Source: Auricularia sp. M13 (Eukaryota; Basidiomycota; Agaricomycetes; Auriculariales; Auriculariaceae). From it: a DNA stretch of 64,000 nucleotides. Below are positions 33,235 through 51,717 of the stretch, piece after piece (position 1 is the first letter of the stretch; every line of letters starts with the position of its first letter). The stretch lies in the NCBI GenBank assembly GCA_037042915.1, contig CM073193.1, positions 7,564,001-7,628,000 on the forward strand. The letters are read 5' to 3'. The position numbers were made by a program, and so were the translations under genes. A model generated the notes under the pieces. That model was not told the origin of the DNA. It saw only the letters and a list, made by a program, of their open reading frames with translations, and did not search any database.

Positions 33235-35653
33235 CTAGGCTGTCGACCAGTACTCTACAGATGTCGCCGGGTTTACGGAGCTTGGGAAACGCTGATCGAA
33301 GACCGCGGCTTCGCCCTGTTCAATGGCATGCTCTCGCGAGTCTTCCAATGCTATCCAAAGCGACTGGTCCACTGGTTCATGATACGTGGCCGTATTCCAG
33401 CGTTCGGCTATGTTGCTGAGAATGTCCGCTGCCACTCGCTGGCATTTAAATGGTGCTTTGCAGCCTGCCTGTCTGTCGTCCGTGCAATTGCTGCACCAGC
33501 AGAGTCTCACGTCCTCGTGGTCCAGATCGTCGGGCTCCGCCAGCTCTTCCAAGTCTTCGACCGTTACGACTTCATGTCGCGTACGCAGGCACTTGAAAAT
33601 CTTTCTTTTGTCCTGAAGAGCGTCCTGGTGTAGTAGCGCTGGATGAGACCACACCATGACCGACTCTCTCATCTTGAGAGGTATAAAGGGGTCATCGGCG
33701 ACGACGTTGTACTTGCGCGCTGTGACTATCATCTGATGGAGGATAAAGGGCAGTCTGTCCTTGTTCGGTCTCCAGTCCTGGTAGAAGGGGTTTATTCGCT
33801 GGCCTCTCGCAATACGAATCTTGTGTTCATTGATCGTACGTGCGCGAAATATTCCGTCACTCAGGAAGGCCCAGATCGGTCTCGATTCCGAGGGTGCCAT
33901 GTATGCGCTGATCCAAGCGAGGTACTGTGCCTCGTTGCGCGCACCGACGTGTATGAGGTTCATGCCCCCGTCCTGTCTCGCTCGCCGCAGCGTGGCCATG
34001 TTAACTGGGTGGCGCTTCGCGTGGTTCCAGAAGAAAGAGAGGACAAGCTTGTCAAGCTGTTCCTCTATCCGCTTGGGCATTCCCTGCGCCGCCATGAGGT
34101 ACTGCGTCAGGCCGCCGACAACTACTTGTGCTATCCTCGCCCTCCCGCTCAGTGTTGGTGTGGATTTTTCCCATCTTTCCAGGGACGACTCTATCTTATC
34201 AATTATTAGCGACCACGTGTTCACATTTACCACCTTGTTCCCTGGCCAGGATCCCAGAATTCTGGTTGGTTCCCCATCCTTTGCTATTCGGATCTGTTGC
34301 GGGAATGCCGGAGCATCCTCATTCAGACGTCTCGTCGCGCACAGCTTCCCGCGGAAGGTCTCACTTCCCAGAGGGATTATTTCAGTCTTCTTGACGTTGA
34401 ACTTGGCGCCGGAGGCTAAGCACCAGGTCTCAGTGATTCCCCACAGAACCGCTGGCGAGTCTAATGCGCTCATGTAGACCGTAGTGTCGTCTGCATACAG
34501 TGTAGCGATTAATTTTTCTCGCAGTCCTTCGATCTCATACCCCTTGAGCGTTGAGTTTCTTAGCATTGCCGAGAGCGGCTCTATTGCTAGGTTGAAGAGG
34601 AGACACGAGAGCGGGTCCCCCTGACGTACGCCGCGTGTCACCGTAAAGCTGCGGCTCATGTGTCCATTGACCATGACGCTGGTCTTAGCGTTCCTGTACA
34701 GGTGGCCAACAACCTGGATGAACCTCTCTGGGAATCCGAAGGTACGTAGCACTTTGTGCATGTAATCGTGTCTGATTCGGTCGTAGGCCTTTTCTTGGTC
34801 TAGGGCTATGATCGCGCCGTTAGTCTCCATCGCTTCAGCATAGTCCATGATCAGAGACGAAATCTTCGTGTGGTCGGTGATGCTACGGCCCCGTACAAAA
34901 CCTGCTTGTGAGTCGTGTATAAGTCCCGGGCGAGTACTGCTAAACGAGAGGCTAGAGCTTTCGTGTAGACCTTGTAGTCCGTATTCAAAAGTGTTATTGG
35001 CCTATAGTTTGCGATATCTGATCTTTCACCTTTCTTATACAATGGGCAGAGCCAGCCTTCTGCGAAATCCGTGTGTGGGGCAATACCGTGTTCTTCTATG
35101 TCCGCGAAAGCCGCTGTCATCAATCTGATGATGTCGAACCATGGATCATGCGATTTTGACGACGTAGTATATTTGCGGTGGAGCTCTTTCCATAGTTCGT
35201 AGGTGAGACCATCATTCCCGGCTGCCTTCTCATTCTTCGAGACCCTCAGGGCATCCTCCACCTCGGAGTATTGGATTTCCTTCCCCATAGTGGCTTTCCC
35301 CTCGCGATCCACGCGCGGTACTATGTGGTCGAGTGTTTTCGCGATCGCCTCTGCGCGGTCCTGTTCCGCCACGTCTAGATCACGTAGCTGTATCTTCTCG
35401 TGGTAGTTCCTCGCTAATTCAGCCATTTGTTTGGAGTTCGTCACCTGCACATGTGGGTTGGCATCTGGATTCTGTAAATACGGAATGACTTCTCGTGGTT
35501 TTGGCTCCTTTACCCACCGGAACCAAGATTTACTCATGGTCTCGCCTTCCAGCCAGGACCTTGTCGCTCTATTTCGGAAGATCTTCAGGAAGTTCATCTC
35601 GTGGTCATACGCAATCCGGCGCTCTGCCTGGGTTAATTTGGCGCGTGCTGTGA
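33235..35653 (-). CDS. LINE ORF2 reverse transcriptase part
   Basis: Target-primed reverse transcriptase. Blocks in order: AAGNDGLTYELWKEL, CPLYKKGERSDIANYRPITLLN, SQAGFVRGRSI, IALDQEKAYDRI, TRGVRQGDPLSCLLFN, LYADDTTVYMS (YADD catalytic box) and a thumb region. One single-base frame change lies near 34925, just before the QAGFVRGRS block. The upstream end at 35653 is the target duplication of the KDZ transposon; the endonuclease half continues in the same codon phase at 49647. No catalytic residue is missing. Confidence 0.85.
35642..35653. repeat. 12-bp target duplication, left of KDZ element
   Basis: CGCGTGCTGTGA, identical to 49647-49658. Both copies fall in the LINE ORF2 frame at the same codon position. 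Confidence 0.85.
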
Positions 35654-35680
35654 TGTAGCCTAAGGCATCACTTTCTGGGG
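35654..35680 (+). repeat. KDZ left terminal inverted repeat
   Basis: 27-bp end beginning TGTAGCCTAAGG and finishing CACTTTCTGGGG; pairs with 49620-49646. Confidence 0.75.
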
Positions 35681-35962
35681 AGAGGCCCCTCACTACTCGG
35701 TGGCCCCTTCAAGCTGGGGCCCACATATGAGGGTACCCGATATTGAGGGCCCCAAGTACAAGGTGTACCCAATACTTGGGGGGCCCCACATTCGCGCACC
35801 TCACTGTCGTGAAGCCCCATCTTGAGCCCGCCGGACGCGGAACCAGAGCCCTTGTACTTACATGCCGGAACCAAGACAACGCCCCCCCCCCCCCCCGCGC
35901 AAAGTCTACTGAAAAAAGTACCTATCGTAAATACATTTTCTGGTAGGATCGGAAAACTAAGT
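35681..35962. repeat. KDZ left subterminal repeats
   Basis: Short repeated G/C blocks in both orientations (AGGCCCC, GGGGCCC, GAGGGTACCC, GGGCCCCAAGTAC, ACTTGGGGGGCCCC) and a run of 18 Cs near 35880-35897. Such arrays next to terminal repeats typically bind transposase. The matching array is at 49520-49619. Confidence 0.6.
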
Positions 35963-38900
35963 CTAAGAGCCCGATTTTCGTTCGGCAGAGAGACGGCACT
36001 CCCGGTTCCAAATTGCAAAGTAGGACTGCGTAAACAAGATTGCGTGGCGCTGAGTCATATAGCTGAGCGGGCGACGGATTCTGAGGAGACCTCGATTACC
36101 ACACTCTGCGGCGCTGGAGTTCACCCGGGCGAGTTCGGGGTCGTTCCTGTAGCTGCTGATCTTGCAACACTTCGAACAACGAGTATGGCCCTTGCCGTGA
36201 AATCCGTCGATAACAAATCGGGTGTTCTTGAAGAACTTCGGCTCGCGGAGCATGCAGTAATGAGCCAATGCGCACGCGAAATCGTAGACAACGGTCTTCG
36301 GTGGAGTAGCCCATCGAGTAAAGAGCGCCGAGAACACGTCGTTGCGCCCTTCGCCGGATGGAATGCAGTGGAACCCGAGGCATACGAGGTGCGGACACCA
36401 CGCGGCCATGATGCCGCCAGTCTGGCCCTCGATGCCGTACGCGCCGAAATACTTGGAGCACCCTATACCGCCCGCGCCAGTGTCCGTGATAACAGACCTG
36501 TCGACCTTCTTGTCGCCAGGTAGATGAGGATACTCTGGGCGAAGGCGAACCTGCGGACGGCCATAGAAGCAGCCTGTCTACGACGAATGAGTGTCATTCT
36601 CGTGACCGAGAGCACGAACGTACCTCCTCCCAACAATCTTCCCCCTCGACAGGTACGGCCGATTCGAAATCATGATCGCTGAGGCTGGCAGATACACGCA
36701 TTGCCCGTCCGCGAACAAATTGAACAAGGCCACGAAGAGACGCGGAATACGAGCCCGATTCCCGCCACTCCTGCTGGGCGACGGCACCGAGCGCGGGCAC
36801 AGCGCGACAAAGAACATCGGCGGCGATGGCCTCATTCTTCTCGAGACTCAGCAAGGCAACCCACGTCGGCGCGGGGGCAAACAGTAACACAGATTCGTAC
36901 GCAAGGACCTGCGCCCCGTGTTAGACGCAGACCGTAGGAGCAAAATACGACATACGACATACCTGATTCAACAACTCGAGATACGGCTTGCGACGGTCCT
37001 CGTCTGGTTCGTAATTCGGCGTTACGAAAACCTCGAACAGTGCACCCAACGACCAGTGGACGAGGCTCAACTCCTTCGCGATAGCAGGCAGACTCGCGCG
37101 CATCGCGCGATCCGCCAAATCGCGTTTCGAGACCCGCACATCAGTTGCACGGGCAGCGCCAACACCGTCCGCATCCGCATCGGGGACAGCCCGCCCACTG
37201 TCGTCGTCGTCGGGATCGTATGCTATCCCGTCCATGGCCGAGGAGTTGGTCTTGGTCAGGCCCTGGCGCCAGCGTACCGCCCTCTGGCCGCGCTGGCGAG
37301 CGAGACCCCACACAGCTGATACAGACTCGATTGGCGGTCTAACAGTATGACGAACAGGTGCTCCGGGGAGAATGGTCGTCGGCGGCGTCATCGTCACTGT
37401 GCAATGTTTCTTGTTGAAGCCTGCAGTGACACCATCGAAGATGACCGTCGCGGGATCGGGACCACACGTTGTACAGAGGAAGCTGTCCCCTAGTTGCTGG
37501 ATGCGGCGGAAAGAGAACCACGCCTTACGGAAAGAGTCGTCAGAAACGAATGCCACCGGGCTCTGCTGCTCGATGTAGGAACGCGCGATGACAGTGGCGT
37601 GCGCATGGAACGGAAACTCGTGAGCCGTGAACGACGATGTGAAGCCGTTCAGCAGTTCGTGAGTATAGATGCTGTGGTTGTTGAAGTTGAACAAGCCCAG
37701 CTCCTGCAAGTCGGGACCAGCAAAGACACGAGTGCGCGGACAAGACGAACAGTCCTGAACCTCTATGCGAGTCTTCCAGGCACGTTGAGATCCATATACC
37801 GTGCACGGCATGGTGCGCACAGACGCACTCCTCGGACCAACAGATCCACAGCAACATCGCGCCTCGCCCGTGATGACGAGGATATCCGGTATAGGAGACA
37901 CCAGAGCAAAGGTCGGCGCGGTGTCGCTCGGTAGTCGACACCAAGCAGGGGGACCGACAGGCAAGCCCGAGACGCTGCGTTCCTCGAGCTTCTCTTCGCC
38001 ACTGCGCGCATTGACTGCGCTCGTCGTCAACACTTTGATGCCCAGACAAAGATAAGACGTACTTTTCTGACGCTCAGCCTGGATCGACTGCTCGACAACC
38101 TGCTCCTCCGTGAGCGGTGCTTCGCCCACTCCAGCCGGTGTTCCTGGGATTTCATCTGCGGCGTGGGCCTGCTCTCCAGCTCGAACCCAACGGCGAATCC
38201 TGCCAATATGTTGGCAATTGGTGGACCGGTCGCGGCTACACGCCCAAGCACCTGAATCGCAAGATGGACCGACGAGCGTAACGATCGCCGGAGGTCCGTC
38301 CTTTGATATCATAGCGAAGGTTCTTTGAGGTTGACCGCTGTCCGACTCGGCACAGGTCTCGAGCGGCACGAAGTCACAATCATCTGCGTCGAAACTATTT
38401 AGCATGAACACCTCTCGATCAACTCCAGGACGCTCACGTTGTTCGCACAGCACCGCGAATGGTGGAGGCTCCGAGTCCGTTACGACACGGGTATGCACGC
38501 ACGCACTTCCGGCTTTGAAGTCAGGGCAGGTGCAGTAGTGCTTGACGGTACCGTCCAGCTCTCGTTCGGCTTGTACGACGACCCAGCCATGTATGCCGGG
38601 ATGGACGTGACATTTATTGAAGTCGTAAATTTGAGCCACCCAGAATTTCCGGTCCAGCTGCACGAAGACCACAGCTTGCTCGTCTACCAAGTCACGATAC
38701 ATGGGATAGAGATCGTTGTGGTAGGCACGGAGTGAACGGGGTCAAGAGATGGAATAAGCCGAATACATCCGGTGAGTACATGGATCCGAAACCAGCCTGC
38801 CACATCGTTGACGGGCACACGCGACGCGGACGGGACCACTCTGCGCACAGTGGGACGTGGCGATCCCTGAGGAGCAGCGTCGTGTAGCATTCCCATAGCA

Positions 38901-39124
38901 CGACCTTTAACGGGAGACGTTGGCACCTCCTGCGCATGGTCCACTCCAGCTGCCGCCGTCAGCGGCACCTGAGATGGCCTGCTCGACCCTGCTGCAGGTG
39001 CCCGAGCCTTCTTACTGGCACTCTGTGCCAGCAAAATTTCATTCTCTTCGTCTTCTTCTATCACACGTCTTTTTTTTCCACGACCTCTGGGCGGCAGGGC
39101 GTCACGGAACATGGGGCCCAGCAC
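35963..39124 (-). CDS. KDZ transposase with SWIM finger and Cys cluster
   Basis: Nuclear DDE-type transposase. ATG at 39124 starts MLGPMFRDALPPRGRGKKRR (basic, nuclear-localisation-like) and a disordered acidic stretch. The next exon (about 38690-36921) holds a SWIM zinc finger (CTCPDFKAGSACVH, CxCxnCxH), then a Cys-rich cluster (ARCCCGSVG, VQDCSSCP) and the family block LGLFNFNNHSIYTHELLNGF, FVSDDSFRKAWFSF, CTTCGPDPATVIFDGVT. Further exons give GCFYGRPQVRLRPEYPHLPG, VITDTGAGGIGC, KTVVYDFACALAHYCMLREP, FFKNTRFVIDGFHGKGHTRCSKC and NSSAAECGNRGLLRIRRPL followed by YMTQRHAILF. The Asp residues in the TDTG and YDFAC blocks and the Glu of SSAAE are the likely catalytic triad. Stop at 35963. Exon joins are approximate. 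Confidence 0.83.
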
Positions 39125-39200
39125 TACACGGTCACAATCGTGAAAGCGTGTTGGCCAAGCTCCAGTGCCCGACGGTCACAATCGTGAAAGCGTCGGGCAG
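39125..39200. promoter_or_regulatory. Paired operator-like repeats upstream of transposase
   Basis: Two identical 20-mers, CGGTCACAATCGTGAAAGCG, at 39129-39148 and 39173-39192, immediately upstream of the transposase ATG (39124). The core TCACAATCGTGA is nearly palindromic. The second copy is framed by GCCCGAC and GTCGGGC, giving a hairpin. Inverted diverged copies lie at 39572-39590 and near 39617-39630. They may be transposase binding sites for autoregulation. Confidence 0.65.
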
Positions 39201-40336
39201 CGAGTGGAGGACGCGGGACAGAAGCGCGGCTAGAAAAAAAAATAGTCAATGAGCAAGTCCGGGCGCGACGACGCGCCCGGACGTCAACGAGTGGACTCAC
39301 CTGGAGGCCACGGCGGTCTAGACGACCAGCCAGTCAGCGCGCACGAACAGAAATAAAAGGAAAAGAAAAAGAAAACGCACTTGGTGGTCGTCGTCGTCGA
39401 CGACGATGACGTGCGGCCCTGCGCTGGCGGAAGCGCGCGGTGTGGGAAGAAGGAAAGAGTGTGGCGGGACTTGGAACACCGCTCGCGCTCAAGTCCGTTT
39501 CAAAGTCCGCAGCAGGCAATAGCCGGCGGCGGGGTTCCAAATGCCCCCCACCTCTCTCTCTCCGCCGCCCGCCTTCACGACTGTGACCGGGCAGCAGCGA
39601 GTACCGCGCCGCGCATTTGCACGATTGTGCCTGCGTGGTAGGTGCTCGTGAGGGGGAGGGGTCACACCTAATGATTTTGTAAAGCGCGGCTCCGGCCCAG
39701 CGCCCATCTCTAGATACGTCGTCGCCCACAGTGTGCTCAGTGTTCGTGTGTTTTTTTTGCCCGGTGCATATCTTGGTCAGTGTGTTTCTTGTCGTCAAAT
39801 CCTGCCTGCCAGTGTTCTTCCCTCCTCTCCTCGCCGTCCACGCCAACTCTCTGTCGCCTTCCTCTCTCGCTCGTCGTCCTGCTCGTCGCACCCTCTCATC
39901 CGCCGCTCTCCACCGCTCTTCTTCGCTTTGCTAACTATTTGTATCCTGTGTTTTGTTGTCTGCGCTTGAACGTTGGTTTTTTTCTCTGGGTCTTGAACTT
40001 CGTCTGGTGTGATAAAAACAATTACCCAAAGGTGAGGTCGCGTGAGAAAAATGAGAAAATCTTTTTTTAAGTTGTATCTGTTTCAGTGTCTATCTCCTGC
40101 TGGGCGTTACAGGCCGTGCTCGCCGCCTCAAGTAAGGGGCGTCGAGGACGGTCGTGACGAATGCACGTCGCCGTGAACCCGAAAGGTGTGTACTTCGTCT
40201 TCTGCGTTGAAGTGAATTAAGGAGTCGAGCACAGCAGTAGTCTAAATTATTGGCCGCGCTCGTCGCCCAGAACCGTGGCGCCGTGGACGGCCGTGACAAA
40301 GACGAGGCCCGAACTACAATGAAGACCAGTACTGCT
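39201..40336. other. KDZ internal non-coding region
   Basis: 1.1 kb between the transposase and accessory gene A. It contains the inverted operator-like copies (39572-39590, 39617-39630), pyrimidine-rich stretches (39680-40000) and T runs. A 185-codon minus-strand frame (39334-39891) is Arg-rich and motif-free and I do not call it a gene. Confidence 0.45.
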
Positions 40337-41633
40337 CTACTTTCCAGGCACGTACTTCGCCTCCATCATGTGGAGCCGCGCGCGAAGCATCACATTCGCC
40401 TCGTTCAACTTCTCGTTCCTCTCCTTGACGTCGGCGTTCTCCTTGCGCAGCGCGTGCACCTCCTCCTCGTAGGCCTTGTTTTTCTTCTCCACCTCCTTCG
40501 TGTATTGCTCACGGAATGGCCTCAGTTTCTCCATGATGGTCGTCCTCACCTCTCCAATCAGCTCCGGCACGTCACTCTCAACCTGCTCGGAGTGCCACGT
40601 GCGCATAATACCAGAGCCTGTGCGTGGAAGGAAAACGCAAATTGCCCAGCCGTTGGCACGAGAGGCGAGCGTATCGGCCTTCTGCGCCACGGCCTGGAAC
40701 ATACGAGGGATGCGCTTCGCCTTCTCTGCTTGTGTCGGGTATTCGGCCTTGCGAAGGATGTTGCGCTCGAGATCTGGCCCATGTGAGTGAGGGAAGTACA
40801 AAAGTCAGGATTAATACTCACCGAGGGGCAGAATGCCGCGCGAAGTTGCCTTCCACCCGTTCTTCAGGCGATACGTTGGACGCTTGGGCTTGCTCACGGG
40901 CTTCTTGGACTTGTCGGTGTCGGCTTTGATCGTCGCAGTGTCGGGCTCCGTTGGTGTGCCGTTCGTCGCGTCGTGGGAAATGTCGACATCCATGTCTTGC
41001 GTGTCGCATCCGTGAGGTGCCTCGGTGGCCGTGGCGGGCGCGTTGTCCTGCTCGTCGGCGACCTTCAGGCCCTCCTCGTCCTCGTCATCACTGTCGTGGG
41101 CAATGTCGGCGGGCAGAAAGTCTTGAAGAGTCTTGCCGTCGGGGAGCTCGAGGCCGGCGGCTTCGAGTGCGGCCATGATTTGCTCGGCATCGACCTCACC
41201 GTCGTTCTCGTCGATGGCGAGTCCGACTTCGCGATCGATGCGCTGTGACTGGATGTCGGTATGGGCAGCGAGCACCGTCTCCTCAATCGCAGCCGCCTTG
41301 GCAGCGAGGGCCGATGGCCCGTTCTTTCCGTTCTGCGACTTGTCAGCTCGCGTTTCATACGTCTTCAACGTTCGGGAACGTACTGCACATGCCGTGGCTG
41401 CGTGTCCCTTCATGGGCGCGCCGCAACTCTTGCACTTGGGTGATTTGCGGACAGACGGCGGCTTTGTGGGAGCGGTCGTGTCGGTCGTGCCAGTCGAGGT
41501 GCGCGTGCTGCGCGTGCCGTGCGCTTTGTGCGACGGCTGCGGCGGAGCATTCTCCTCTGAGACCCAGGTGAGCAGGCACGGCGTTCACAGACGAACGAGA
41601 CGACGACTGACTGTTCTTCTTGCTGCGGGCCAT
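40337..41633 (-). CDS. KDZ accessory protein A: zinc knuckle plus coiled coil
   Basis: ATG at 41633 (MARSKKNSQSSSRSSV). After a short intron, exon 2 is Thr/Ser/Pro-rich and then carries KCKSCGAPMKGHAATAC, a zinc-knuckle-like C-x2-C-x6-H-x4-C. An acidic, Asp-rich middle (EVDAEQIMAALEAAGLELPD, HDSDDEDEEG) precedes a basic stretch (KSKKPVSKPKRPTYRLKNGW). The last exon (about 40775-40337) has ANGWAICVFLPRTGSGIM and ends in a strong coiled coil (EVEKKNKAYEEEVHALRKEN). About 400 residues. The mixture of knuckle, NLS and coiled coil suggests a DNA- or chromatin-associated partner of the transposase, but no family is recognised. Confidence 0.65.
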
Positions 41634-42413
41634 GCGGTTGCAGTCGAAGCCGAGGGAATTGGGAAGACTGTTGAGGGCGTTCCAGAGAGTATTCCGGGGC
41701 CCCTTATAATGCACTGGGCCATGTAGACGCCCGTCGGCGTAGTGTCTGGCCCCGTTCGGGCAGAAGTTGGCATGAGTCTTCTGCGAGTGATTGGCGTCGA
41801 GGCTTCTCGAGTGATAGGCGTTAGAGATTCTGCTTGAAGACTTGGCGCTTCGAGAGCCTGGCCGTCATGCTCCTGTTCCAATGTGCAATGGGAACTTCAG
41901 CTGATCCACGCACCGGCGCAGGGTCTGCAGTTATGTGTCTGCATAAACTGGCCACCTGGAGGACATTGAGTTAATGCCCATGTAAGCTAAGTCTGTTCCC
42001 AAGTGGTGATGGGCACTTACGTTGTGTTGTACAGCCCTCGTCTGACAGCCGTGTGAATTCTTCGCATGATGCGGGTGGCAAGCGCACAGACTGGAGGACT
42101 GCTCACCCAGGCGTTTGAGCTGGACTGTGCCCTCGCTATTCGTAGTCTGTTGTCGCGCCGATGCATTGTCCTCGTTGTGTCAGACTTGGTATGCATGTTC
42201 CGTATCGAGGTGTGGCAATTGTCGACTGACACCTTCGCAGTCATTTGATCATGGCTGTGTTCTTCGCTCGCGTGCTGAACCACTTTCACACATGCACATG
42301 GTCAGCATGTCTGACGATGCGCAATCCCGGATTATACGGATATCCTATTGTCTCGTAGGCAGGAACGCGTCTCGTCTGTCGAATCCTCTCAGCCCAGTCT
42401 CGTCAAGCCTCCA
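41634..42413. other. KDZ divergent intergenic region
   Basis: 780 bases between accessory genes A (minus) and B (plus). Short frames only. An upstream coding exon of gene B starting at ATG 42307 and joined at the TCGTAG acceptor (about 42359) is possible but unproven. Confidence 0.4.
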
Positions 42414-43949
42414 ATGTTCGCAAACCGCCGCACCGTGTCGTCTCCGCTGGCTCGCAAGGCCATGTCCTCGTCGCGTCAAACAGCACAGAAGCCCAAGACA
42501 CGCTCTGTTTCAGCTCGCGGCAAGAACGCCGTTCCCAGTCCCTCGGAGCAGCTCGACATGGCCGACATCGCGCATCAGCACTCCCTCCGTGACTGCATGA
42601 CTGCGTATATCGAGCTCAGGCGTTCGACTCACCCCGAGGAGTTCGCGAAGGATCCTACTCATCAGCCGACATACATCTGTGGCCCTTGGGAGCCCAAGCT
42701 CGTCTTGCGCAATGTTCGGCCGCCAATTTGGGAGCAACTCATGTGCCCGCAGTGCGGCAGCACTTCGCCCTCACTATACACGTTCACTGGGCGTCAAGAT
42801 CCGGGCTGCACTTGGGTGAAGGTGCGTATCGCTGTTGCGCCGTCGTCTCGTCCGAGATTGAGCATGTTGCAGTGCTCGCAGTGCAACCAGGTCGAGAATA
42901 CTCCAGGCACCGCGAAGTCCTCGGGCGACATTACGAAGACCCCGCGAAGCGTCGACTCTCATGGGCCATTTGCCGTATACGATAGCAACAAGTGTGAGTT
43001 GCGTGTATGGGTGACTAGGCTGGCCTCAGAGCGCGAGGCCGAAGTAGGTGCGCGCGCTTCCTTTCCATTGGTGCATAGTACTCATTATTTGACAGAGGCT
43101 GTCAAAGCCCGCGGGTCACGCACACCGTCAGGATCCAATCCAGCGACGATCCGCAGAGCAAGCGCTGCGCGCGCGCCGCGCACTCCATTGCGTCGTCCCC
43201 GCAAGCCTTCCTCGGCGGCTACCAGCGGCTTCTTCTCTGACGACGCGGACGATGACGGCAAAAGCGCGGACAAGGACGGCAACGACTCCGAGTTCACCGA
43301 CACCGAGTCAGACGCATTCCGCCAGTTGATGGCGCGCTCTCGTGGCCCACTCGCGGACCCTCCTCGCAACAACAAGCAGCGCCGCAGCAATGCAGCGGGA
43401 AAACGCGCGGTGTGCGGCCTCGTCGAAGACTCCATCGCCGCCGCCACAGTCTGACACGCAGGCCCAGCAGCGCGTCGTTGCCAACGTTCCACTATCTCGC
43501 ACCTTCGCGTTCAAAACTCGCGAGGTACAGGTCTCAGTTGAACTCATGGTGAGTTGCCGTTAAGCATCTCTGCATCGGCTCGAGTTCAAACGTCGCAGAA
43601 TCGCTCGTATCGCACGGTCAAGGTTGCTATCACCGACAACAAGTTGACGTGGGCCGTTCTCAAGTGCTCTCTCTCCAGTCTCTTCGTCGACGATTCCGTT
43701 GGTCTTGAAGTCTTTGACACCGTCGGCAACCAGTGGCGCCGGTTTGGCCTTGGCACCCAGCTTGGTGTGCACGTCTCGTCGAATACCATCGTTGCACGCG
43801 TCGTGCATGGTTGGGCTCTCTCACTGGAAGTCATCGAGATCCCCTCCACAACGGAGGATGAGAAACCTTCCAAGGTCGGGGATAAACGCTATTACCCCAA
43901 GCCGCTGACTTTCATCACCAAGTCCAATAAGCGGGCAAAGCACCTTTAA
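42414..43949 (+). CDS. KDZ accessory protein B: zinc-ribbon protein
   Basis: First ordinary ATG at 42414 (MFANRRTVSSPLARK). A disordered basic N-terminus leads to a domain with YICGPWEPKLVLRNVRPPIW, then paired cysteines LMCPQCGSTSPSLYTFTGR and LQCSQCNQV spaced like a zinc ribbon. A Ser/Arg/Asp-rich linker follows, and a C-terminal domain (TREVQVSVELM, then after a 44-base intron NRSYRTVKVAITDNKLTWAVLK, SLFVDDSVGLEVFDTVGNQW) ends with KSNKRAKHL at 43949. Near 43410 the frame must shift between the linker and SKTPSPPPQSDTQAQ, by a small intron or a single-base break. No known family; position inside the KDZ element and its Cys pairs suggest nucleic-acid binding. Confidence 0.6.
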
Positions 43950-45130
43950 TTCCTTTTCCTATTCCCGAGTTTTTGTTTCTTGATAGAGTTCGCGTCCTCG
44001 AGTTATTCGCATAGTCTGAATTGGATTCTCGTATTCGCCCGTTTTGGCTTTGTCACATCAACCGGCTGCACTCAGGACAATCCCGGATAGTCTAATCGCG
44101 AGATCCGACGATCCAAGATATCGGATCGCCGGATCCTGCGATCTATCCTGCCGGATTATCGTTTGCGCAGCGTCGTCCGCAGCCGTCACCACTGGCCAAT
44201 TTCATTGCTTATGCGTTGCACCGGACTCCACTTCACTCCTGCGTCACTTTCGCGGTGCTCTTGCTTCAGAGTCTCAAGGCGCTCTATCCCGTTGCATGAG
44301 ATCTTTACGGGCTCTTCATATCTGGCTATTTGATTACGTCGAAGAACAGCCTGCACTATGTCCGAACTGTACAATTTCATCATGAAACGGTCTACATTGT
44401 GAGTATTCTTTGTGAGGTTTACGCTCAGAGCTAACCTGCACCCCGGTCGAAAGGTCTATTGCACTATGTCTGAACTGTACAATTCCATCCTGAAACGTCA
44501 AATTTGTGAGTATGCACCTGATAGTTCTGCGCTCAAAGTACTCACGTCTTTGAATTCGACGACCTGATTATCCGTCTCAGGAGCAGCACCTCGCGCACCG
44601 CAATGCTCACTGACGACTCGCGCTATTCGATTCTGCAATCGCGCCAAGTTCCTGGTCGCACGCCGAGTAGCCGGTTCGTAACTGTGCAGGTGTCGGAGCA
44701 CCGGCGTCAGATCGATCAACCGGCCAATCCCGCGTCCGTCTTGCATCTTGTCTTCCGACCGCGACCACCCAATTCTCTCCCCCATTCCCATCCACCAGCT
44801 TCGTGGCGGAGGGACTCTGCGATTGCAGCTCCCTCTGGACGTCGTTGGATCTTGGTGGCGCCGCTATTGTACGATTGTACCTAGTGGTGGACCAGCTCTC
44901 CTGATCGCCCGCTTATACTCCCCTGATCGCCCGCCTATCGTCGACGGATCACGATGTCGGCCAAGGCGTGCGTGTCGTCAGGCTGATCGTGCAAGATCGC
45001 TGTGCTGATCATGCATTACCAGTGCCACGTCCCGCGCCAACGCGACCCGCAAGCAGACTCGCGGCGCTCGCGCGCGTCTGCCATTGCAGCGCGAGCATCA
45101 AAGCCAGTGCGTAGTCGTCGATGCCATACC
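43950..45130. other. KDZ internal region with tandem duplication
   Basis: About 1.2 kb between accessory genes B and C. It holds the near-duplicate segments listed separately and several short frames that may include unresolved 5' exons of gene C (a donor-like GTGAGT occurs in both duplicate copies). Confidence 0.4.
44354..44515 (+). repeat. Diverged direct duplication, 107-bp period
   Basis: GCACTATGTCCGAACTGTAC with TTCATC(A)TGAAACG downstream occurs at about 44355-44405 and again at about 44462-44512 as GCACTATGTCTGAACTGTAC, each followed by TTGTGAGTAT, a splice-donor-like sequence. Identity is about 85-90% over 50 bases. Confidence 0.7.
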
Positions 45131-48100
45131 ATGATGCTTACAGTAGACAGTACTACATCGGACACTGTGGACGAAGCACCCCGCGGCCGGCCTCTAGTCG
45201 ATTGGCACGAATTCCCCGACGCTTGGAAGAAAGTCTACGAAGACGCTCGTCTTGGACCGTGAGTCCGCGCTCTGTTGTTGGGTCCAGCGCGTGTCTGATT
45301 CTCTCCAGTGCAGAATACTGGGCCCATTCCCCCCTTCTCCTCCCCCGACGGTTCAAGAACCGTAAGTCACTGGCTCCCAGCCAAGATATGAACTCACTGA
45401 TGAGTCTAGATTCAACGCCTCTCAGCTTCTCTTCCGATCGGAGGACCCGGATGCCTCGCCGGCGTACGAACAGGTTGAGCTCTGGGTCGACTTCTTCATC
45501 GAGTGTCTGCACCTCGAACGGGACATGGCGGCAGAGCGGAAGCACATGCGCGCACCACATTCTGTGCGCGGTCGATTCTACCTCGGTTATCATCCCTCTC
45601 CTCCACGACCGAAGTTGCCTGTGAACAATGAGTTCCGCGAATGGATCCTGCCAGTCCTCCGCGAACAATCGCCCAACCCGCTCACGAGGATCGTGCCTGA
45701 TCAGACGGACGACGAGGAGGCATGGTTCGCATCCTTGAAACTCTGGCACAAGCAGGCCGTCCAGTGGCTCACGCTGCGCAAGAACGAGGACCTCTACGTT
45801 CGATTGTTCGATAAGCACAACCGCGACGAGTTCTTGCAGAACTTCCCACATTCGCACAACATACTGGATGTCGTTATGCCTCAGCGTCTCAGCAGAGAGC
45901 TCTATGCCGCTGACCCCACGGCCCCGAAACTCATGCGCCACCATCGCTGGTGGTGGAAGTACGCGGACCTGGATCCACCGCCAGGCTATGCGGCTGCGAT
46001 ACGTGTCGTGACGAATGTCAATTACATCCCCCCTTTGCCGCCAGTCACTAAACCCGTCATGCGCATTGACGGCCGCTACGGCGTGCAAGAAGAATCATGC
46101 TTCCCGACGTGGCACGCTATTGGGAAGTGGCACATGGCGTTCATCTCGACTGAATTGCATGGTCATGTAGAAGAACTCGAGCACAGCTCCATCCACAAGC
46201 CGATGCAGTTCTATATTCCCGACTTTGAGCGCGATTTCTGCTCATATGACTTCGACATCTCCTTCGCGCCGAAACCTGCCCTTAAAGCTGCAATGCAGAA
46301 AACCTGGGAGGAAGTCTTCAAGTCCATCGAGGACCTGGGACTCGGGCCGTCTCATCTGGTGCATCGGCCTTTCGAAGCAGAACAGCGCGGACGTGCTGCA
46401 ATGCGGTTCTTTTTCAACCAGCAACTGTCCAAGCGGGACTTGCGCGAGACTCTGGCTTCGTGGCAGCGGGCCGTAGCGGAGATCAAGGGCTGGATCGACT
46501 ACATGAAGTTCAACAATTGGCTTACCAAGTGGTCGCAGAGGTCCAGCAGCCGAATTTTCCCGTTGCCATGCGATCTGCGTATGAAACAAAATCGCCAGCC
46601 CGCCCGCGGTGTCTTCACAGACGACGAAGCTGTCGCTGCTCATTACGCCCAGTTCGGTGTTCCTGTATGGTTGGTGCGCCCGCGCGACGACTTGGGCAAC
46701 GTCTGGCTTGCGGGAGGCGACGAGGACCGTATCGACATCACGCCGTTTGTCTGCGAAACTCGTGCATACAACGAGGAGCCAGGACATCGCCCGGCTTACC
46801 TATCTTCGACGTATGAGACGCGCTCGTTCCCCACCAACAATTTCGACTTCAACGAACAGGACAACGACTTCGGCGCACAGGACATTCCTTACCATGCGTC
46901 AGGTGCGAGTCTGGCTCGGTTTATCGTGTGTATGCTGATTTTTTGTAGGCGCAAGCGAATCGGCTGTCCGTCTGCCAGATAATCCTCGGAAACGCGCAGG
47001 TGCGATCTTCAAATTCTGACCTGGCGCCGTGACTTACCCATAGTAGTTGATCATGGACACAAGGACCAGCCGGCGGCAAAGAAGTCCAAGCAGGCCAGCA
47101 GCAGGGCTGAGGCGCTCAAACTGCCGAGGTTCCCAATGCAGCGGCTGTTGAAGACTTATCCCTCATGGTGGCCGAAGCATTGGAAGGTCGCCTTGGACGT
47201 CGTCTCGTCGATCAAACTCGATCCGACTCGCGTCCGGGAACTGAGGACGGCCGCACAATATCCAGTGCCAGGCGTCGAGCATCTAACCGGGTACTTTGCT
47301 TCGCCCGTCGCTGCCCATTTCGCTGGGGAGGGGTCCAAAGTCCCGATGAATCTCACAACCATTTTCGCTTCGTATGTCATGCTGCGCCCACGTTTGCTCT
47401 ATGCTTTGAGCAGCTGTGCTCCCGGCGACTTTCAGACTTTCTCCGCGGTTCACTGGAAGAGAATTCTTACCAACCACCTCGACGAGAAAGACCAGGTTCT
47501 CTTCGCCCGGCAACTCGGCCTATCTGCTGTGTCGCTTCCAGAGGTCATGGAAGTCGACAATTCCACGCTTCGATGTCCTTCATGACAGCGTTCCCGCAAG
47601 CCTTGCACCGCGAGTAACGGGCGATGCAGCGAACTCGTCAGCCCAGTCCGCTGTGTCTACTTCAACGACTCCCAGCTCGCTTGCGTCGCGACTTCCTCCT
47701 ACTGCGCCGCCTTCTACCGCGCCGACTTCGCGTAACGCGTCGCCATTCGAGGACGTCATGTCGGACGATGACATTGACATGACTCCCGTTCACGGCAACG
47801 CTCAGGACGAGAGCCTCAAGCATCGCTGTTTCGTGCCAGAGACTGAGCCACTTGAACCGCCTCTCGCACGTGAAGAGCAGCGTTACCTCTATGAGCCCTC
47901 CGCGTGGCGTAATACGGCTCGCAACAAGCTGCGCGCCCTCAGCAAGTTCACCTGGTTCGTCGAGACCGATACCGAACCCAACGAACCACTGCATTTTGTT
48001 GTTGCGGGCGAGAAGAAGCGCAAGGAGTACTTTGAGGATAACGAGGATGCAGATGTGTGGTGGGATTATGACCGCGGCTGGTGTATCGTCTTCCAGGAAT

Positions 48101-49172
48101 CTCCAGCGGTGTCCGAAGGCAGCCTGCATGGTCAACGACTGACGCAGCCCTTGCGTTTGTTTGAGTGGGGTGGGCAACGAAGCGTGCAGAAGTATATCCA
48201 TGGTACGCAGGATGGGAATACCATCCAGCTGCGGCTCTGGCACCGTCAGTCGTTCAACCACAGGTGAGTTATATCGATTGTCTGTTGGGTGTCAGCTCGC
48301 TAATTCTTCTCAGAGTGCAGGTTCCTATGGAGCCGCTCGGCCCTGTGGGGTGTTTGTCAAAACTGAGGTGGGATCTTGACGAGGAGGATTATAACTTCTT
48401 CTTCCCCACCGCGCCGCGTCGGCTTCCAGTTCCTCGAGCAGATCAGCTCGTGCCGCCGCCACCGCCGCCCTCCCAATCAAATCCTACGCAGGCGCAGGTG
48501 CCGGTCATGAACACCATCGTCACTGCGTCTTCCTCGACAGCGCAAGCGTCATCCGGGTCATCGAGTGTGTCATCTGCGCCTTTGGGTTCCGTACCGCGCT
48601 CGTCGTCATCTCTTGTGTCGACGGTGCGCGACGCGCTCAAGCCGCAGCGCATCATGATGTTCAACGACAAGGAGCTCACGCCATACGATCCGCCGGACGA
48701 TGTGGAAGCCAGTCGTGCATATTGCTGGCCGTCCGACAAGGAGCGTGCCCTCATTGCCTGGGACGTAACGGAGCTGTCGTTCCGGCTGGAGCTCGCCCTG
48801 CTTGACGACAAGCTGCGTTTACTTTATCGCGACGACGTCAAGCTCAACGCACAGTCGAACATGGAGCGCCAGGAGATGATCTTCAAGATCTGGGGCTCAA
48901 ATAGTTTTGTGCCAACGACGGCGAGCCCGCTGACCGCGCCGGAGTGGACTCTCCGCATCGACTCGTTGCTTGCATTCCATGCTTTGGTTTCCACCTGGCC
49001 CCGCGTCTCAATCACGTCGCCGCCCGCTGTTTTCCCCGGTGAAGCCGAGTTCCTCGCGTTTGAGAAGGAAGTCTGGCGGGCTTACGCGCAGACTCATGTG
49101 GACTACCTGTTTCGTCAGGCCATGGTGCCACTAGAGCATCCTGAACACTCCGAAGATGTCGAAATGTCTTGA
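45131..49172 (+). CDS. KDZ accessory protein C: large protein of unknown family
   Basis: ATG at 45131 (MMLTVDSTTSDTVDEAP); exons 45131-45258, 45314-45361, 45410 to about 46906, then short exons around 46950-47000, 47048 onward and 48311-49172. More than 1,100 residues. Parts include GRPLVDWHEFPDAWKKVYED, FRSEDPDASPAYEQVELWVD, MRAPHSVRGRFYLGYHPSP, HHRWWWKYADLDPPPGYA, YAQFGVPVWLVRPRDDLG, a basic HKDQPAAKKSKQ stretch, LKTYPSWWPKHWKVALDVV, KYIHGTQDGNTIQLRLWH and a C-terminal helical domain (RIMMFNDKELTPYDPPDD). There is one single-base frame change near 47570. Tryptophan-rich and conserved-looking, it matches no enzyme motif I know; in particular no HxD...H dioxygenase signature of TET/JBP. Similar long orphan proteins are abundant in mushroom genomes, which would fit transposon cargo. 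Confidence 0.65.
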
Positions 49173-49619
49173 TCTCGCTTGCACCTGTAATACTTTGATA
49201 TGTTCTCGACCTGATTGTTTGAAGGTAGTTTGAACTCTTCCCCGCTCAGTCAATGGTACGTCTTTACACTTAAGTCTTGCCAGTAAGTCTTGAAAGGTGT
49301 GCAAACTCTTAACTTAAGTTCAAGTCATCCCATGGATGAGCTATGCCAAGTGGCAAAGCAAACGACTTAGCTCGGTGTGCTCAGTGGTACTCATGACTTG
49401 GCGGGTTCCGACGCTGTTCCGCAGTTTGCTTCCGGGATTCTTGCACTGAGGCTTCTTGCACCACCTCCGGGCTTCTCGCACTAGCTCCGGGCTTCTTGCA
49501 CAGCTGTCCGCTGTTGCCCGCTCAGCACCAATAGTGGTATCACATGGGCACCAGTAGAACTGGGCACCCTCAAGCATGGGGTACCTCTTTACAGGGGCCC
49601 CTCTTACTTGGGGGGGTTG
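49173..49619. repeat. KDZ right subterminal region
   Basis: Short direct repeats (CTTAAGT, AAGTCTTG) at 49260-49330, CTCCGGGCTTCTTGCAC-like repeats at 49430-49510 (three copies of the CGGGCTTCTTGCAC or CGGGATTCTTGCAC type) and G/C blocks (GGGCACC, GGGGTACC, GGGGCCCCT, CTTGGGGGGG) matching the left end in inverted orientation. Expected transposase contact region. Confidence 0.65.
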
Positions 49620-49646
49620 CCCCAGAAAGTGCATCCTTAGGATATC
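49620..49646 (-). repeat. KDZ right terminal inverted repeat
   Basis: Reading inward on the minus strand: GATATCCTAAGG then CACTTTCTGGGG; pairs with 35654-35680 at 21 of 27 positions. Confidence 0.75.
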
Positions 49647-49658
49647 CGCGTGCTGTGA
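49647..49658. repeat. 12-bp target duplication, right of KDZ element
   Basis: CGCGTGCTGTGA, identical to 35642-35653. Confidence 0.85.
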
Positions 49659-51248
49659 CTGCTTCTTCCTCCGTGGTTGCCTCTTTGAGACTGCATGCCG
49701 CAGCTTCTCGTGACGTAATCAGAGCTTTCATCCTGGAGTCACGTTTGCAGTTTATTTCTCTGGTTCTAGACTTTGCTACCGCTGCAATGTTCTTCTTTAA
49801 CGTTTTCCAGATTGTCTGCGCATTAGTCTCCGTTGATCTGCCTCGCGCCTGCACGTGATTCAAGTCTTGTATTGCTTGACGTCCGAGTGATTTTACTTCG
49901 TTCATAAAGGTCGAATTACTTATGATCGAGCTGTGCATCGCCCATCGTCCCGGGCCCATTTCCGGGGCATTCACCAGCACGATGTCTGTTTGTATCCTGC
50001 TATGATCATCCCTCGTGATCCCAGTTTGGTAAATTTCCCAACTCTTACTCGTGTGAAGATGCTGGCGAGTGAGGTATATCCTATCTAGGCGTGACATTTG
50101 TGATCTGCTTGCATTCCTCCAGGTCCATTCTACCTGACCCGGGAAAGTCGTACGCCATCCATCATTTAGTTTGCAGAGCGACTTGAGTTTCGAAACGTAG
50201 CGGGAGCGTCGATGCGGCCAAGCTTCGCTGGGAACCTATCAACCTCGTCCTCTACGAAATTGAAATCCCCTAGAAGTACTTCGGGCCTCTTTCCTGCCAG
50301 CGGCCCCCTTTTAAACTTCTTGTAAAGGATCTCCCACATATCATGATTATCTGATCTATCTGTCGGCGCGTAGACAGCGAGGATGTTGAGCCATTTGTCA
50401 CGATGGCAGAGTATCCGTGCTAGAAGAGCTCTTCCTGGTATTAGCACTTCAAATTCAGATTCTTTCGTCTTGAGCAAGAGCTTGTTGAAGACGAAGGCAA
50501 CCCCTCCGGCGCCAGTTGGGTTCTCCGGTAGAGCTGTGTTGACGACGTGTATATGCTTATGGAAGTCGTTCAGGTCTGCAACATGCGAGTTATCCATATG
50601 TGTCTCCTGGACAGCTAGGACTGCTATTTTCCTATTCCTCATGTCCTCTACAATTCTCTTCCACCTATCATTCCCTCTCATTGTTTGAGAGCCACGGCCT
50701 CGTATATTCTCCGAGGCTATACGCAGCGTGGCCTTGGTGTGCTTCCTCCCGAGATTCGCATCCACGCTCGCCGTCGGTCTCGGCGATGTATCTATAAACG
50801 CCGGCTCCACGTTGTCCGTGCGTGGGCTCTCTGGTGGCGACGACTCCGGATAGAAGATCGATGGTGTCCTAATGTATTCAGAGCTCATGGGCGACCTGCC
50901 ATGATTCTGCTCTTCATTTCCAAATCCCTCCGTTTGCATTGGAGGGGGCTGAGTAGCCTGAGACTGTCGTGTCTGGGCGGGCGCCATGCCCTGTTGGGTG
51001 AACGTGCACACAGGCTCGGGTGTCGCCTGACTCACGCGCGCGATGTAGGGCGCATGGTCATTGCCATGCGACATTCCTGGCCTGTGTGCATCGTCCGGGT
51101 ATATTTGCCCGCCTGCATAGACCTCTCCTCCTTCATCCGCTGCGCGCGTGGCGGACACGCCGTGCGCAGGTCCAGATTGAGAGGCCGTGTGAGCCTGCCG
51201 TTCATCCGAGACCGTATGTGGTGATCGTTGCTGTGAGATTGGTTGCAC
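49647..51248 (-). CDS. LINE ORF2 N-terminal part: APE-type endonuclease
   Basis: Nicks target DNA to prime reverse transcription. A Pro/Ser/Gln-rich leader (first ATG uncertain) precedes LRIASENIRGRG, IAVLAVQETHM (catalytic Glu), ILAVYAPTD, VLLGDFNFVEDEVDR (GDFN) and, after a single-base frame change near 50170, SRLDRIYL and TRDDHSRI (the DH pair). These are the expected active-site blocks of Exo_endo_phos nucleases. The part ends at the KDZ insertion and continues in phase at 35653. Confidence 0.85.
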
Positions 51249-51717
51249 TGTGAGGATTCACGACTGCAGGGCAGTGCCCCTACGCCGCTAGCTGTCTGAC
51301 CGGCCAGCACGGTGGGCTATGCGAACTTCGCATACGCGTTATCCGCGTACGCTCGGAACGCTTAAGCGTCTCCGCACGGCTTGCCCCTGGTCTGAATAGA
51401 CCTCCGTTTGAATAAATAGCCCGCGGTCTTTCCTGTTCAAGCAGTAAATTTGGGACACACGGGGCACTGGCTTTAGTTTGTGCGTAGCTAGGTAGTCGTC
51501 CTTGATGCTGTCAGCCTTGGCGGCGCGGGGATCATGTCGCAGGAAAACCAGCTGGGCTGGCACTCTATTCTTGTCGGGTAATATCGACACCAGGTCTGCG
51601 GGTCCGGCGCGAGAGAGAGGGGGAGTAGGCGAGGGCAGAGGGATCGGGGAGGGCTAGGACAGGTTGGGATAAACTCGGGGGTAGACTACTCGGGACGCGA
51701 CGCGTATGGTCTTGTAT
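51249..51717. other. LINE inter-ORF region
   Basis: About 470 bases between ORF1 and ORF2. An 83-codon frame (51339-51590, minus) may be a spacer peptide or an N-terminal extension of ORF2, but has no motif. Confidence 0.4.

Follow-up and report, generated by a model that had tools for sequence, protein, structure and literature searches.

What does a KDZ transposon carry besides its transposase, and do the additional genes belong to the element? It is for an association with TET/JBP genes that KDZ elements are known, and a KDZ element of about 14 kb in the genome of Auricularia sp. M13 puts the question in a different form. It lies at positions 35652-49648 (C1:7599652-7613648 in the genome) of the window analyzed here, a 64,000-nucleotide stretch of assembly GCA_037042915.1 (contig CM073193.1, 7,564,001-7,628,000, forward strand), and beside its transposase gene (35963..39112, minus strand) it has three orphan genes: a zinc-knuckle/coiled-coil gene (40340..41584, minus), a zinc-ribbon gene (42315..43946, plus), and a large tryptophan-rich gene, the Trp gene (45366..49169, plus). 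A first-pass annotation had proposed that this set may be a cargo system apart from that of TET/JBP-bearing elements. That proposal did not survive comparison within the same genome, where TET-bearing clusters have the same coil gene, mostly the Trp gene as well, and the same gene order. Across diverged families, the coil and Trp genes accompany the transposase in a constant order and orientation, as does a plus-strand gene between them where one was detected, and the set in the window looks like a conserved core plus a swappable module.

One gene order around CxC4-type KDZ transposases

Protein searches of the window's own genome (52.1 Mb in 14 contigs), in which the counts for large families are "at least" values, found 41 clusters with a KDZ transposase of the CxC4 type, 15 with the ribbon gene, 15 with the knuckle, and 46 with the Trp gene. 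Every ribbon cluster and every knuckle cluster (15/15 each) lay near a CxC4-type KDZ gene and a Trp gene, and 28 of the 46 Trp clusters were no more than 14 kb from a KDZ gene, a distance at which 2.4% would be expected by chance. At one further locus with KDZ and Trp genes (L078, C9:247k), hidden Markov model (HMM) searches found knuckle, coil, and ribbon, raising the clusters with both ribbon and knuckle to 16, all with KDZ. The coil domain of a TET-bearing relative, used as a query, gave 34 matches at 33 places, 32 of them within 10 kb of one of the 41 CxC4-type KDZ places (chance about 1.6% each); counted from the transposase, 32 of the 41 places had a coil gene within 10 kb. KDZ genes of other types behaved differently: when 149 matches to the KDZ catalytic model PF18758 were typed and adjacent fragments merged, none of the 87 strong other-type places had a coil gene within 10 kb, whereas seven of eight weak places of CxC4 type did. 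A second Trp query, also from a TET-bearing relative, added Trp genes at TET-bearing loci, and the combined searches yielded 72 clusters, 30 of which contain KDZ, coil, and Trp genes. Order and orientation were the same in all 30: KDZ (minus), coil (minus), knuckle if present (minus), ribbon or an alternative "slot" gene if present (plus), TET if present (minus), and Trp (plus).

TET/JBP takes its place in this order as a further gene; other families have it between Trp and the middle gene, and clusters with ribbon and knuckle lack it. A search with the TET/JBP model PF12851 lists 19 places, of which 14 have a CxC4-type KDZ gene no more than 13 kb away. For three matches (C2:20444, C4:4292374, and C9:3236951), the 50 kb to either side contained no CxC4-type KDZ match. 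None of the 19 falls inside the window's element, as the first-pass annotation had said of its accessory genes, within the reach of a model that highly divergent TET types could escape. In every cluster with both genes, TET adjoins Trp and is on the transposase strand, and where the slot gene is present TET lies between slot and Trp. Eleven TET-bearing clusters have a coil-domain gene, ten of which show TET between coil and Trp in a KDZ cluster or its broken remnant; in a twelfth case, C8:3313k, TET lies slightly beyond the cluster gap. TET was found in 0 of 16 ribbon-plus-knuckle clusters and in 11 of 17 other coil clusters (Fisher P of 9e-5, a descriptive value only, because clusters of the same family are not independent). 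Five coil clusters had neither TET nor ribbon plus knuckle, and two of these (C1:1983k and C5:677k, read in part) resemble L078. The coil gene at two TET-bearing loci of 9 to 10 kb each is a single frame of 581 or 437 amino acids (aa) with no clear knuckle, one having a weak knuckle match at an E value of 0.02. The slot gene is another orphan gene at the ribbon position in 12 clusters, nine of them with TET; a thirteenth match is a lone fragment. It was considered as a candidate homologue of the ribbon C-terminus, but three HMM rounds gave no link.

The core-plus-module reading rests on these two patterns: TET-bearing relatives mostly keep coil and Trp, while TET and ribbon plus knuckle never share a cluster; on the latter ground ribbon plus knuckle may be an alternative to TET. 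In this genome, the orphan genes appear to be standing components of such elements, and TET/JBP looks like the optional extra.

An element that moves as a unit

Element ends and target duplications were established by eye from the flanking sequence of eight elements. Searches of the genome with the left 107 bp and the right 107 bp of the window's element found 10 left ends and seven right ends, and separately a 25-bp end pattern with up to three mismatches matched 18 places in the 52.1 Mb, the reversed control matching none. These ends make up eight two-ended elements and two lone left ends. Six of the eight have a perfect 8-bp duplication (the window, C3:2159580, C4:180577, C10:295139, C10:3614059, and C1:7909192), and the remaining pair (C8:2918608 and C8:2978707) has crossed flanks, each copy having on its left the 8 bp that its partner has on its right. 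The latter two are the copies in C8:2918608-2992622 (L001, L002, L064, and L065), which lie in inverted orientation 46 kb apart with their target duplications exchanged; because inverted copies have exchanged halves, recombination between them probably inverted the intervening segment. On transposition, the whole element travels as one piece and duplicates 8 bp of target.

In the window, the duplication CGTGCTGT stands at 35644..35651 and 49649..49656. Alignment with the seven other same-ended elements gives termini of GRTGTAGCC...GGATATCCG, and the terminal inverted repeats (TIRs), GATGTAGCCTAAGG... at 35652..35680 (plus) and CGGATATCCTAAGG... at 49620..49648 (read on the minus strand), are short and, as first described, imperfect: 84% identical over 25 bp, with 21 of the 30 terminal bases the same and scattered similarity further inward. 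The first-pass annotation had placed the element at 35654-49646 between copies of a 12-bp direct repeat, CGCGTGCTGTGA. A single element with defined ends is indeed present, and the 12 bp do occur on both sides, but alignment of the eight elements rules out a 12-bp target duplication: the true duplication is 8 bp, the other four bases are the element's own ends matching by chance, and the boundaries move out to 35652-49648. Its account of a clean insertion into a long interspersed nuclear element (LINE) with matching codon phase holds. The downstream part of the interrupted LINE, with reverse transcriptase (33235..35651, minus; RVT_1, E of 2.3e-25), and the upstream part, with an endonuclease domain (49657..51257, minus; Exo_endo_phos, E of 2.3e-6), join into a single open frame of 459 aa when the element and one duplication are removed in silico.

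In five elements of this genome, ends of this kind enclose the complete set of four genes, the recurrence that the first-pass annotation had asked about. Same-ended elements lacking the accessory genes exist beside these five, namely the two lone left ends and three non-autonomous elements (15.4, 5.4, and 4.7 kb) in which protein searches found none of the four genes. These three are one related family, whose 15.4-kb member is the 5.4-kb type enlarged by an insert of about 9 kb. What they have in common with the window's element is limited to the ends and an internal 86-bp block (L074:2621-2708, L075:91-178, and L076:2972-3045). The block lies at 39117..39202, immediately upstream of the presumed transposase start, and contains two identical 22-bp repeats (39128-39149 and 39172-39193); a third copy, inverted and degenerate with three mismatches, is at 39570..39590 (minus). 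Allowing up to four mismatches, the repeat pattern matched 12 times in the window and the fetched loci, and the reversed pattern did not match. We rejected the idea that independent elements have kept these repeats, as the three non-autonomous elements are related and count once. The 22-bp repeat was sought and not found in L077-L080, and the TET-bearing relative L079 has different tandem and palindromic repeats in the corresponding interval. The 86-bp block is a putative cis-acting region. In the non-autonomous copy with the 9-kb insertion (C10:295139-310518; L073 and L074), three frames scanned had no Pfam match at an E value of 0.1, and a captured nucleoporin gene, suspected in the 4.7-kb element, was discarded after no match in Pfam (E of 0.1) or PDB (E of 1).

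Transposase, accessory proteins, and marks of selection

The transposase gene is spread over several frames, with exon borders and start presumed: a catalytic KDZ part at 35964-36577, a CxC4 and SWIM-like part at 36922-38741, and an N-terminal part from the ATG at 39110-39112. The catalytic domain matches PF18758 (E of 8.8e-7; 29.3 bits against a cut-off of 26.6; profile positions 75-217 of 217), is over the cut-off in the genome search too, and shows candidate catalytic acidic residues in translation, and the KDZ-associated cysteine cluster is CxC4 (PF18717, E of 6e-40); the first-pass assignment to KDZ is thus borne out by both models. A SWIM finger, a feature of the Zisupton transposase of fish, is matched weakly (E of 0.007; 16.3 bits, under the Pfam cut-off of 19.6).

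The 8-bp duplications, perfect in six of eight elements and with exchanged halves in two, and the short imperfect TIRs are features of the Zisupton branch, for which 8-bp duplications are reported as cited in PMC12730594 (Kojima 2025). As described in that source, Kyakuja of Laccaria and other mushrooms belongs to the same superfamily but has 7-bp duplications, 5'-CA..TG-3' ends, and no TIRs, none of which apply here. The TET/JBP-bearing Zisupton elements of Agaricomycetes, in the parts of the same paper used here, share the KDZ transposase and the duplication length with the window's element, which has ribbon and knuckle instead of TET; the descriptions of those families used here name transposase and TET and no conserved coil or Trp gene. 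The TET-bearing relatives in the Auricularia genome show KDZ, coil, slot where present, TET, and Trp in one order. KDZ1-KDZ3 of Cryptococcus neoformans, which have been shown to move, are alike in size class (9 to 11 kb) and in duplications (8 bp or 4 to 8 bp) but differ in TIRs of 139 to 241 bp and in CxC1, and the portion of PMC12810828 covered does not mention such accessory genes. Fish Zisupton, by description only, is alike in 8-bp duplications (as cited in PMC12730594) and differs in a CxC7-type cluster and an F-box link (PMC12062965, in part), and the giant KDZ elements of brown algae are alike in large size, additional genes, and nested insertions (PMC12477816, in part). The parts covered of these four papers and of PMC7641404 treat KDZ, TET/JBP, cysteine clusters, and accessory genes generally and do not mention these orphan genes. 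We do not claim that the set is undescribed.

Two frames make up the knuckle/coil gene. One holds a knuckle motif, C-x2-C-x6-H-x4-C (about 41387-41434), and the other a conserved domain, about 67 aa long, and after it a coiled coil (40340-40804); from their position they probably form one gene, single frames having been seen in no knuckle-bearing relative. The ribbon protein has one Cys4 ribbon, a low-complexity middle, and a conserved C-terminal domain (43596-43946), within which VIEI (43830..43841, plus) is followed by acidic and serine residues. The V and both I residues are invariant in nine of nine aligned rows, representing about five distinct families, and we take this tail to be a SUMO-interaction-like motif. 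The Trp gene consists of open reading frames (ORFs) at 45366-46979, 46983-47582, 47410-48264, and 48165-49169; in the first part of its protein, His273 and Pro335 are invariant in 23 aligned rows.

A Pfam scan of the window's non-transposase ORFs gave nothing over the curated cut-offs, in line with the first-pass view that the three genes match no known family. Among the relatives' accessory proteins, a decapeptide-repeat model (PF25296) matched one of 23 members of the Trp family at an E value of 2.8e-5 and was judged compositional, as was a coiled-coil model on the window's coil frame (E of 0.0006, under cut-off); the remaining listed matches (to E of 0.1 or 1) were weak. PDB profile searches reached at best an E value of 1.7 for the second Trp part and 0.14 for the coil and found none for the first Trp part or the ribbon C-terminus, and a PDB fold search with the Trp structure model gave no match (best E of 3.4).

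Trp genes also occur in a repeat family of seven copies (L022-L026, L031, and L032), about 82 to 99.7% identical in DNA over the main pieces, with no KDZ, coil, or TET match nearby. One Trp-only family (E) was considered as an integrase element, since a PF24764 core (E of 5.6e-34) lies downstream of one copy; the idea was set aside, as only one of the two copies examined had it and the second copy's like offset lacked BLAST similarity to the first locus. The frame at that offset in the second copy appears F-box-like by eye. Upstream of a Trp-only locus, L081:1660-2148 has a DEDDh_C domain over the cut-off (E of 4.9e-7).

Compared with its relatives at C4:180k and C3:2159k, the window's copy has 48 to 90% protein identity depending on the stretch. 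The ratio of nonsynonymous to synonymous divergence (dN/dS) was below 0.4 in every stretch that yielded a value (the coil stretch gave no codons): 0.23 to 0.25 for ribbon, 0.09 for its C-terminus, 0.21 for the first Trp part, 0.35 to 0.36 for knuckle, and, from one relative only, 0.045 for the catalytic KDZ stretch. For the SWIM/CxC4 stretch, one relative supplied 102 codons, and one of the Trp comparisons had reached saturation. At the level of sequence, then, the measured stretches are under purifying selection. Synonymous divergence (dS) is low in the knuckle, 0.40 against 1.1 to 1.8 for most other parts. The knuckle region (40979-41638) is 82% identical in DNA to L043 and L062, against 66 to 69% for the ribbon and Trp genes. 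Such closeness across families is what an exchange by recombination might produce.

Against the window's copy, two near-identical C8 copies show six to 19 substitutions per compared locus and several short indels, some in the ribbon and Trp genes, for which decay and assembly error look the same in sequence. CpG sites, about 20% of all sites, account for 12/15 and 12/15 of the transitions among these copies on the ribbon side and 5/6, 4/4, and 5/5 on the Trp side, small numbers from overlapping loci. In other pairs the share was 38/81 (a TET-bearing pair), 23/37, 22/47, 33/71, 3/4, 4/4, 43/122, 73/204, and 1/5. The excess, present in all pairs except that with 1/5, is the pattern that methylated CpG would tend to give. 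A weaker CpG mark in TET-bearing copies was considered and rejected: their share (38/81) is lower than that of the youngest TET-free pairs, but per transversion there is no clear difference.

Competing accounts of the accessory genes

We read the element as a Zisupton-like, CxC4-type KDZ DNA transposon with a conserved multigene core, whose accessory proteins would be DNA- and chromatin-binding partners of the transposase, and put the probability of this reading at roughly 0.7. The coil protein, with its zinc knuckle and coiled coil, and the ribbon protein, with its zinc ribbon and SUMO-interaction-like tail, would act on element DNA, with the termini and the repeats that precede the transposase start as the likeliest sites. 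There they might help assemble the transposition complex, sustain element expression in a CpG-methylating host, or both, and TET would be another route to keeping the element expressed despite methylation.

Several observations count against this reading. No fold or family match in Pfam or PDB assigns an activity to any of the three accessory proteins, and the two structure models are weak (predicted local distance difference test scores, pLDDT, of 60 and 41). The window's ribbon and Trp genes carry single-base differences from the two near-identical copies, which bears on whether this copy of the element is active. Nine of the 41 CxC4-type KDZ places have no coil gene within 10 kb, and while ribbon, knuckle, and coil are not found mainly outside KDZ elements, the Trp gene stands without the others in 23 of 60 clusters; some of these 23 are matches of short length or low strength, and seven make up the repeat family described above. 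Three-round HMM searches detected no similarity between slot and ribbon genes, and five TET-bearing clusters with KDZ and Trp show no slot gene. All clusters counted come from a single genome, in which those of one family are not independent counts.

The alternative that fares best is that the accessory genes serve only the transposition reaction, through end binding, target choice, or complex assembly, as in multiprotein transposons, with no role in silencing. Elements with and without TET alike keep coil and Trp, the coil is strictly linked to one KDZ type, and the internal repeats adjoin the transposase gene, all of which this account would accommodate. It sits poorly with the solitary Trp genes and does not predict the exclusion between TET and ribbon plus knuckle, though descent of two lineages would; we regard it as a reasonable contender that falls short of even odds. 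Somewhat less probable, and tentative in our judgment, is a role for ribbon plus knuckle as a module that counters silencing independently of TET, comparable in this to the proteins by which plant VANDAL elements regulate themselves. The exclusion with TET in otherwise similar clusters, the excess of CpG transitions, and the conserved SUMO-interaction-like tail point this way. However, these proteins have no catalytic domain, simple descent could explain the exclusion, and CpG transitions relate to transversions as 38 to 49 in the TET-bearing pair and 23 to 36 in a TET-free pair of like divergence, with no clear difference.

A broader proposal would combine these elements of the argument: CxC4-type KDZ transposons may have a shared core of transposase, coil, and Trp together with an exchangeable slot for countering silencing, which either TET/JBP (in many cases along with the slot protein) would occupy or a knuckle/ribbon/SUMO-binding pair that would escape methylation without a demethylase. 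We consider it speculative and rather unlikely to hold as a whole; literature searches did not find such an escape described. That the three genes are passengers, host derived and carried by chance or for host benefit, is very improbable. In its favor, they lack similarity to known transposition proteins, accessory genes are said to occur in fungal KDZ elements, and the brown algal giants carry additional genes (PMC12477816, in part); against it, order, orientation, and selection are maintained across families down to about 30% protein identity. Chance neighbors or a composite of nested elements, suggested by the repeat-rich region and by a nested insertion in another copy, we dismiss as refuted by the five four-gene elements with the same ends, the 8-bp duplications, and the LINE site that rejoins in frame.

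In this genome, the orphan families are more constant partners of one KDZ type than TET/JBP, which looks optional. Two matters thereby become testable: what a complete KDZ element requires for movement and whether transposons have answers to DNA methylation besides TET.

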